This document shows positions 22,526 through 24,128 of a stretch of 40,175 nucleotides of DNA, in pieces. Made by a program: the position numbers and the translations under genes. The DNA is from a virus. The stretch lies in IMG/VR virus record IMGVR_UViG_3300025132_000096, positions 1 through 40,175 of that record; one strand, written 5' to 3'. Position 1 is the stretch's first letter. Every line of letters begins with the position of its first letter. The notes beneath the pieces are model-generated. The model saw only the letters and a list, made by a program, of their open reading frames with translations, did no database searches and was not told where the DNA came from.

Positions 22526-22882
22526 ATGGACAATGTGTACGTTGAAGATGCTATGGCGTTGTGGGAAGCTGTACTAGAAATGGCAACAGAGGACGAGGAC
22601 GTAAAGGATCTTTTTGATACAGATGTGAGGTTGATGCGTAAGCAACTTGCTCTGCTGATGCCGAAAGCCAAGGCTTTTTACCAACAGTACCGAAGCGGAG
22701 GTGAGCATTTAGATAAATCTTGGGATTGGGGGTTTTGTCCTTGGTTTGTTAGGAACTGTGTTGATTGGAATGGCTTTCATTACGGACTAGAAACAGATGA
22801 TTTCCGTGCGTTGCCGGAGATGGTAGACGACGAACTGTATATATCTAATGAACTCTCCCCGAAGGGTGAGAGAGTTCACTAG
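22526..22882 (+). CDS. Early protein of unknown function ending in SNELSPKGERVH
   Basis: A 118-aa acidic helical protein (MDNVYVEDAMALWEAVLEMATEDEDVKDLFDTDVRLMRKQLALLMPKAKAF). GAGG lies 9 nt before ATG 22526; an earlier TTG at 22499 would add 9 residues. Its last 12 codons and stop lie inside the duplicated hairpin, and the same peptide with one Lys/Glu change is encoded at copy 1. No family was recognised. Confidence 0.75.
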   Translation: MDNVYVEDAMALWEAVLEMATEDEDVKDLFDTDVRLMRKQLALLMPKAKAFYQQYRSGGEHLDKSWDWGFCPWFVRNCVDWNGFHYGLETDDFRALPEMVDDELYISNELSPKGERVH

Positions 22883-22886
22883 ATAG
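22842..22886 (+). repeat. Duplicated long hairpin, copy 2 (overlaps a gene end)
   Basis: 43 of 45 bases match 21957-22001. The two differences keep the hairpin and, in the reading frame, are one silent change and one Glu to Lys change. The copy covers the last codons and TAG of the gene ending at 22882. It may stabilise the mRNA 3' end or be a nuclease processing site. Confidence 0.8.
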
Positions 22887-22915
22887 ATAACTGGCCTTTT
22901 CTTGGAGCAAGCCAC

Positions 22916-23306: not shown

Positions 23307-23690
23307 ATGTCATGTTACGAAGCGCACTGCTCCATAGAGTTTGACACGTTTGATGTCGAACTTTCAGTTCACGTTGAAGGCGAGGAGCTAGACCGTAGCT
23401 TCTACGGTTCGTCTGCCGAAGACATCGCCGATGCTATCGCTGAAGCGATGAACGAGGCCAAGCCTGAGATTGAGCAGGACGACGTGTCTCAGGCAGTAAT
23501 CGACAAGCTCACTCAGTGGCACGAAAAGCTCGACACAGATGTGCTTGACGATACTCTTTGTCGTCAGATGGACGGCGACTGTGGCGGCGAAGGTGATGTA
23601 AGCCACACTGAGTACTACGACCTCGAAGAGGTTGACGTAACCTTGGAGATGTCGGCTTGTTGGAGGGTTGAGGTAATTTACCTCAGTTAG
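23307..23690 (+). CDS. Acidic early protein of unknown function
   Basis: A 127-aa strongly acidic protein (MSCYEAHCSIEFDTFDVELSVHVEGEELDRSFYGSSAEDIADAIAEAMNEAKPEIEQDD). ATG 23307 lies 9 nt after AAGGAG and 1 nt after the previous stop. Its high negative charge could mimic DNA, as in some phage anti-restriction proteins; that is speculation. The last codons contain a 15-nt dyad GAGGTAA-T-TTACCTC (23670-23684). Confidence 0.75.
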   Translation: MSCYEAHCSIEFDTFDVELSVHVEGEELDRSFYGSSAEDIADAIAEAMNEAKPEIEQDDVSQAVIDKLTQWHEKLDTDVLDDTLCRQMDGDCGGEGDVSHTEYYDLEEVDVTLEMSACWRVEVIYLS

Positions 23691-23696
23691 CAGGAC

Positions 23697-23723
23697 AGGG
23701 GTGGGGCCTTTGGCCCTGCCCCT
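23697..23723 (+). ncRNA. GC-rich hairpin before the tRNA-like cluster
   Basis: AGGGGTGGGGCC (23697-23708) and GGCCCTGCCCCT (23712-23723) form a 12-bp stem with two G.U pairs and a TTT loop, 6 nt after a stop codon. No T-tract follows. The string AGGACAGGGG just upstream is repeated directly before the tmRNA-like element, suggesting local duplication or a processing boundary. Confidence 0.6.
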
Positions 23724-23733
23724 GAGTAGGACA

Positions 23734-23812
23734 GGGGGTGAGAATGGTTTCGACATCTCGCAAGACCCGACAGGGTACGGGATGGACTTCGGTTCGAGTC
23801 CGAACACCTCCA
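23734..23812 (+). ncRNA. tmRNA tRNA-like-domain RNA lacking the tag-coding part (mini-tmRNA)
   Basis: The acceptor GGGGGTG (23734-23740) pairs with CACCTCC (23805-23811) in 7 bp, with a G.U at pair 3, the alanine identity signal. Then comes AGAATGGTTTCGACA, which carries the hallmark of tmRNA 5' ends. A 7-bp P2-like stem, CATCTCG/CGGGATG (23754-23760, 23778-23784), is closed by ACCC-GACA-GGGT. The T-arm TTCGG-TTCGAGT-CCGAA (23788-23804) abuts the acceptor. The whole is 79 nt; normal tmRNAs are about 300-400 nt with a tag ORF and pseudoknots. ACTA follows instead of encoded CCA. The fit to tmRNA is seen directly; expression and function are unknown. Confidence 0.65.
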
Positions 23813-23816
23813 CTAT

Positions 23817-23898
23817 GCTCACAGACAGGGTAGGTGCTGTACACACCTTGGGTCTGTGGCCTATGCACTAGGTCGGGGTTCGATTCCCCCTGTGAGTT
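23817..23898 (+). ncRNA. Class-II-like tRNA cloverleaf, apparent anticodon UGG
   Basis: CTCACA/TGTGAG (23818-23823, 23891-23896) is the acceptor, with a possible G.U extension. The D-arm is ACAG/CTGT with loop GGTAGGTG. The anticodon arm CACAC-CTTGGGT-CTGTG has four of five pairs. A variable arm CCTA/TAGG lies at 23860-23872. The T-arm is GGGG-TTCGATT-CCCC (23875-23889). UGG would read proline codons, but proline tRNAs lack a long variable arm, so identity is doubtful. CACAGAC/GTCTGTG offers a competing 7-bp fold. CCA occurs one base late at 23900-23902. It could be a degenerate tRNA. Confidence 0.5.
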
Positions 23899-23909
23899 GC
23901 CATTCGCTG

Positions 23910-23928
23910 AGTCTTTTATTGATAACCT
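23910..23928 (+). repeat. Trailer repeat, copy 2
   Basis: AGTCTTTTATTGATAACCT repeats the trailer of the mini tRNA-like element (21938-21957). It lies 12 nt after the cloverleaf and is followed by GAACAACGGAGG, the ribosome site of the next gene. TTGATAAC could also serve as a promoter -10 region. Confidence 0.6.
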
Positions 23929-23945
23929 GAACAACGGAGGTACAG

Positions 23946-24128
23946 GTGCAAGTCAAGCTCACGATTACCGTTCCGGTCAACGAGAACGAACAGGCCGGAA
24001 GCGAGCTTAACGTAGAGAAGATTCTCTACTTGTTGGAGGAGGCCGAACTAGAGGGCCTCTTAGACTTTCCTTTCAGTGTTCACAGAGAGCTTCCAGAGGA
24101 GATGGCAAGCTTGACAACGGCAGTATAG
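23946..24128 (+). CDS. Small acidic early protein
   Basis: A 60-aa protein, MQVKLTITVPVNENEQAGSELNVEKILYLLEEAELEGLLDFPFSV. A strand followed by a helix suggests a compact alpha/beta fold. The start is GTG 23946, 5 nt after a perfect GGAGG. Its last codons (LTTAV) overlap the TTGACAAC element that precedes the next gene. No family was recognised. Confidence 0.72.
   Translation: MQVKLTITVPVNENEQAGSELNVEKILYLLEEAELEGLLDFPFSVHRELPEEMASLTTAV

Follow-up and report, generated by a model that had tools for sequence, protein, structure and literature searches.

The window analyzed here, the whole 40,175-base stretch of an IMG/VR virus record, carries tailed-phage terminase, portal and capsid genes, and additionally encodes an ArdC antirestriction protein and a DnaB-like helicase; no close isolate of this phage was found. 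On its + strand, positions 23734-23812 hold the tRNA-like domain (TLD) of a transfer-messenger RNA (tmRNA), running from G1 to A73 and lacking the message part: this assignment is confirmed, and the element is called mini-tmRNA below. A tRNA-like domain in which a short hairpin takes the place of tag and pseudoknots is what the first-pass annotation had described, and both the match to the Rfam tmRNA family RF00023 (63 bits) and the predicted fold bear this out. The covariance model R1, built from 32 members of the family described below, scores the element at 66.5 bits.

The order of the parts, all on the + strand, is GGGGGTG AGAA TGGTTTCGAC ATCTCG CAAGACCCGACAGGGTA CGGGAT GGAC TTCGG TTCGAGT CCGAA CACCTCC A. 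The 7-bp acceptor stem, which includes a G3.U70 pair, is formed by GGGGGTG (23734-23740; G3 at 23736) and CACCTCC (23805-23811; U70 at 23809): it is read from the sequence and the fold, and in relatives pairs 4-7 covary and G3.U70 recurs. A73 lies at 23812 and is directly followed by CTA, so that CCA is not encoded. The tmRNA D-loop motif TGGTTTCGAC (23745-23754), recognized in the sequence and in the Rfam alignment, leads into the P2 stem, whose strands ATCTCG (23755-23760) and CGGGAT (23778-23783) pair in the fold; with C23754-G23784 as a seventh pair, P2 counts 6-7 bp (23754-23760 / 23778-23784). It is closed by a cap hairpin, ACCC-GACA-GGGT (23765-23776), found by folding and paired in relatives as well, which replaces the message part and the pseudoknots. 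The linker GGAC (23784-23787), a canonical tmRNA feature, joins P2 to the T-arm TTCGG-TTCGAGT-CCGAA (23788-23804), whose perfect 5-bp stem is evident from the sequence and from T-stem pairing in relatives.

The RF00023 match (cut-off 47 bits, E 1.9e-22) is the only RNA family match over cut-off in the whole window. It spans model positions 1-374, of which about 300 are deleted; these correspond to the tag and the pseudoknots. In this alignment PK1-PK4 are absent, and no reading frame for a tag, with its resume and stop codons, is found: only about 17 nt, folded into a hairpin, separate the P2 strands. Of the two programs originally proposed as checks, the tmRNA covariance model scores above its cut-off, not at background, and ARAGORN, run on the window, makes no call at the element. 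The minimum-energy fold is composed of acceptor, P2, cap hairpin and T-arm (-30.9 kcal/mol, z = -1.9); the folding energy alone is weak evidence for the structure. No promoter or terminator evidence was seen in the window.

With canonical tmRNA, including full phage tmRNAs, the element shares the G3.U70 acceptor, the D-loop motif, the GGAC linker, the T-arm and P2, but tag frame, resume codon and pseudoknots are missing, and its length is 79 nt against about 350. A near-identical design, with P2 closed by a tetraloop, is found in the engineered Thermus thermophilus TLD (5' 25 nt + UUCG + 3' 34 nt, PMC3929946; ribosome complex 4ABR, PMC3968760); the mini-tmRNA, in contrast, is natural; its P2 is longer, and it has an internal loop rich in A as well as a hairpin of its own.

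Other assignments were rejected. The element has a tRNA-like D-loop, a T-arm and a P2 stem, as a tmRNA does, and no anticodon arm: it is not a tRNA, as also indicated by the lack of an ARAGORN call, by RF00023 being the reported match and by the separation of tRNAs under R1. It is not a permuted, two-piece tmRNA either, since the 5' acceptor strand precedes the 3' one in a single molecule, whose P2 is closed by a hairpin. A hidden alanine codon (GCA) in the cap is dismissed because the cap varies (CCACAAGTGG and others).

Relatives and covariation

Relatives were searched, in IMG/VR and in a genome collection, by an exact pattern composed of the tmRNA D-loop, 22-52 nt and the T-loop, which ordinary tmRNAs, being about 350 nt long, cannot match. 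At least 119 viral loci were found in IMG/VR, and 15 more with TGGATTCGAC; 126 out of the 134 viral matches listed passed a test for acceptor and T-stem (at least 6 of 7 acceptor pairs and at least 4 of 5 T-stem pairs). The genome collection, although far larger, gave 26 pattern matches, and only 5 of them passed, so that they may be used as a chance control. A scan with the cap motif AAAGCCGCANGCGGAA, in which the D-loop did not serve as bait, again returned mini-tmRNAs, in most of which the D-loop deviates slightly (AAGGTTTCGAC, AGGTCTCGAC and others): the first pattern thus captures only part of the family. Members score at least 44 bits with R1, versus about 31 or less for tRNAs. The mini-tmRNA is shown to be an RNA family, present in more than 100 viral contigs and in many phages.

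Shorter members, of 64-65 nt, are also observed (L126:4084-4148, L155:737-800). Their P2 is reduced to a small hairpin, which places them near the engineered TLD used in crystallography.

The identity of the element is settled by the strong covariation of three helices among the relatives. In 73 of them, with positions set only by two sequence anchors and no structure fitting, standard pairs fill 91.1% of cells in P2 pairs 1-6, versus 37-43% when the strands are slid. In a model-based alignment of 74 members, pairing reaches 95.6% of cells (39.6-54.0% slid), double-change cells are 476 versus 147 after shuffling, and the covariation score over the three helices is 0.794 versus 0.153, a value reached by none of 500 shuffles. 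The compensatory changes and the conservation in other phages, anticipated as a test in the first-pass annotation, are thus found. The third pair of the cap is standard in 38 of 49 relatives (shuffled mean 22, maximum 31), and all five T-stem pairs are present in 88 of 91 unique ones. The linker GGA, which lies outside the search pattern, is kept in 62 of 73.

G3.U70 is an identity element for alanyl-tRNA synthetase. Its retention, also put forward from the window alone, extends to the family: 71 of 73 relatives have G.U as pair 3:70, and 73 of 75 have A73. Pairs 1 and 2 hardly change, pairs 4-7 vary freely, and in 20 of 75 the CCA is part of the gene, immediately following A73. The maintenance of a wobble pair while neighbouring pairs drift points to selection for alanine charging, by alanyl-tRNA synthetase, acting on the acceptor.

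Genomic settings and carriers

Many members lie inside phage tRNA arrays (L008, flanked by tRNA-Arg and tRNA-Lys; L171, L135, L132, L182, L105). A role of such arrays against defences that target tRNAs has been proposed (PMC10264068), and the mini-tmRNA might likewise be a decoy, or a spare part, against host defences attacking tRNA or tmRNA. This is very improbable: no defence cutting the tRNA-like domain of tmRNA was identified here, and many members are found outside arrays.

Other members occupy the gap between head protease and major capsid genes (the L004 group; Pontimonas phage phiPsal1, before the capsid gene), or, in phages with a WhiB gene, adjoin replication and HNH genes. No neighbour gene common to all was found: neighbours cluster only within phage groups, one of which has portal, protease and capsid genes, and another genes for HNH, WhiB and O-like replication proteins. 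The wide variation of neighbours across phages, together with the retention of all TLD contacts, would fit an RNA that does not act on ribosomes. It could instead absorb or supply some other partner that binds the TLD (alanyl-tRNA synthetase, EF-Tu, RNase R), or donate alanine to a reaction outside the ribosome. Such a role is improbable: the D-loop and the GGAC linker, specific for tmRNA and SmpB, are kept, and a tRNA-Ala would equally serve alanyl-tRNA synthetase or EF-Tu.

Cultured phages are among the carriers. In Streptomyces phages LuckySocke, BRock, Alone3, pSt2308 and Shaeky the mini-tmRNA is located, unannotated, in the tRNA cluster; it is unannotated also in the cultured phiPsal1, while in GiJojo a hypothetical protein is annotated across it. 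Streptomyces phage Riptide features a degenerate copy (L165:1977-2053) with a decayed D-loop and the same AAAGCCGCACGCGGAA cap, which may have a role of its own; a full tmRNA is present as well, at 94862-95130. No other full tmRNA is found among the listed matches of the 53 records with a mini-tmRNA. None of these 53 records, several of which are fragments, encodes SmpB, which the same search detected in all 10 bacterial controls: host SmpB must therefore be used.

The family is absent from isolate annotations, and is missed or mis-called by ARAGORN. In three contigs (L038:5905-6228, L078:10045-10574, L121:2976-3318) this program reports a full tmRNA whose 3' end is the mini-tmRNA. These calls were judged spurious, because the 5' part lies upstream of the mini-tmRNA and the tags are improbable; such full-tmRNA calls in phage genomes may be artefacts.

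In bacteria, the mini-tmRNA was found in 4 of 395 sampled genomes of the class of Cellulosimicrobium; SmpB is present in all four of these actinobacterial genomes, and a full tmRNA scores over cut-off in three. In Cellulosimicrobium cellulans MP1 it is carried by a prophage of about 52 kb integrated at the host ssrA gene (L201:6775-6796, L203:19141-19507). The prophage is bounded by an intact (restored) host ssrA and, 52 kb away, by an exact direct repeat (22 bp) copied from the 3' end of ssrA, next to an integrase-like gene, so named from its sequence. As ssrA is a common phage integration site, mini-tmRNAs might be seen as decayed host ssrA genes or attachment-site remnants, devoid of function. 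This is scarcely credible: strong covariation and the preserved G3.U70 refute it, and attachment-site remnants retain only the 3' end, whereas mini-tmRNAs have both halves, joined by the capped P2.

Ribosome rescue as the candidate target

The mini-tmRNA probably competes with host tmRNA for SmpB and for the ribosomal A site, lowering tagging during infection; the probability of this reading is estimated at roughly 0.6. The phage encodes a tmRNA reduced to the tRNA-like domain with a capped P2 stem, which would be transcribed, often alongside phage tRNAs, trimmed as a tRNA, supplied with CCA and charged with alanine. The charged molecule would then bind host SmpB and EF-Tu, displacing host tmRNA, and take up SmpB and, in stalled ribosomes that lack mRNA, the A site, with no template offered. 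Once it has received the nascent chain, the ribosome might be blocked, lose the chain by drop-off or be released tag-less. Tagging by host tmRNA would drop, and truncated phage (and host) proteins would escape marking for ClpXP.

The proposed role in blocking ribosome rescue through SmpB, already suggested in the first-pass annotation, fits published facts. Binding to SmpB, to EF-Tu and to the stalled ribosome has been published for artificial TLD fragments, and on the ribosome the TLD-SmpB complex mimics a whole tRNA (PMC3929946, PMC3968760). In mycobacteriophage DS6A, a "TLD only" tmRNA has been described, a phage tRNA-like domain which, like the mini-tmRNA, lacks the tag coding sequence; it reportedly inhibits tmRNA in E. 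coli whether chargeable or not, perhaps by titration of SmpB (PMC4131195, PMC11915505, citing Mao 2009). The earlier statement that such a phage RNA was as yet undescribed does not hold, DS6A having been published. The likeness to DS6A follows its published description; DS6A is one phage, while the mini-tmRNA is a large family, backed by covariation, in tRNA-array, structural-operon and replication-module settings.

Several points weigh against competition with host tmRNA as the function. Phages with a complete tmRNA exist, hence the suppression of trans-translation is not a universal phage aim. TGGTTTCGAC and GGTTCGANTCC served as search bait, and their invariance is partly by construction. 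A close relative of the window with a mini-tmRNA at the same site was not found, and the one helicase relative obtained (L199, 48% identity) does not have it. Finally, the published inhibition, obtained by expression in E. coli, does not depend on charging, but the signal for it is retained here: titration of SmpB alone does not explain this selection. The conserved signal suggests that the mini-tmRNA acts at the ribosome, rather than only as an SmpB sponge, and raises the question whether phages merely starve host tmRNA of SmpB, or run a message-less rescue.

In the latter case, the alanyl-mini-tmRNA with SmpB would enter non-stop ribosomes and take over the nascent chain, adding at least one alanine without template; the mRNA would be ejected, the ribosome recycled and phage proteins spared degradation. 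Since SmpB and a TLD fragment make polyalanine in vitro without mRNA (Shimizu and Ueda 2006, as cited in PMC3929946), this is the main rival to competition for SmpB. The retention of G3.U70 and A73, while other acceptor pairs drift, speaks for it, as titration would not need them; mitochondrial tmRNAs, moreover, are seemingly tagless and still retain SmpB (PMC11915505). It is nonetheless unlikely: the one such phage molecule tested in vivo reportedly inhibited tmRNA, and no release route for peptidyl-mini-tmRNA is known. A more far-reaching version, in which phages of many lineages repeatedly send an alanine-charged TLD with host SmpB into non-stop ribosomes, add template-free alanines and release the ribosomes with an alanine tail replacing the ssrA tag, would make the mini-tmRNA an agent of rewired rescue, not a mere decoy; this is doubtful.

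Before this analysis, TLD-only phage tmRNA was known once, in DS6A, and tagless tmRNAs in mitochondria and as two plastid genes. The latter, found in oomycete and jakobid mitochondria and as genes of about 65 bp in Mallomonadaceae plastids (PMC11915505), have likewise lost the tag and kept the tRNA-like part. They are, however, organelle-encoded, with nuclear SmpB reported for oomycetes (PMC11915505), while mini-tmRNAs are encoded by phages, in cells that keep a complete tmRNA. No description of a widespread phage family, of a capped P2 or of the Streptomyces and Pontimonas cases was found in a literature search which most subscription papers and preprints fell outside. The results suggest that phages commonly use the mini-tmRNA to interfere with the host rescue of stuck ribosomes: if true, the DS6A oddity becomes a widespread phage RNA family targeting ribosome rescue. 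The cultured Streptomyces phages make the choice between starvation for SmpB and message-less rescue testable at once.

Sequences beside the element

No match was obtained when region 23600-24000 was compared with phage records by blastn at distant settings: the mini-tmRNA is too diverged for BLAST, except when well-chosen members are used as query.

Directly downstream of it, a second tRNA-like sequence is present at 23817-23896, with a 7-bp acceptor (CTCACAG/CTGTGAG), a T-arm GGGGTTCGATTCCCC, a long variable arm and the loop CTTGGGT. Neither ARAGORN nor Rfam calls it; it may be a degenerate tRNA that makes up a small array with the mini-tmRNA. Upstream, between the preceding open reading frame and the mini-tmRNA, a strong GC-rich inverted repeat without a T-run (CAGGGGTGGGGCC/GGCCCTGCCCCTG, 23696-23724) is a possible processing hairpin. 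On the - strand, an imperfect inverted repeat at 22836-22889 gives 27 bits (E 0.78) with an Rfam miRNA family, below threshold and probably due to chance.
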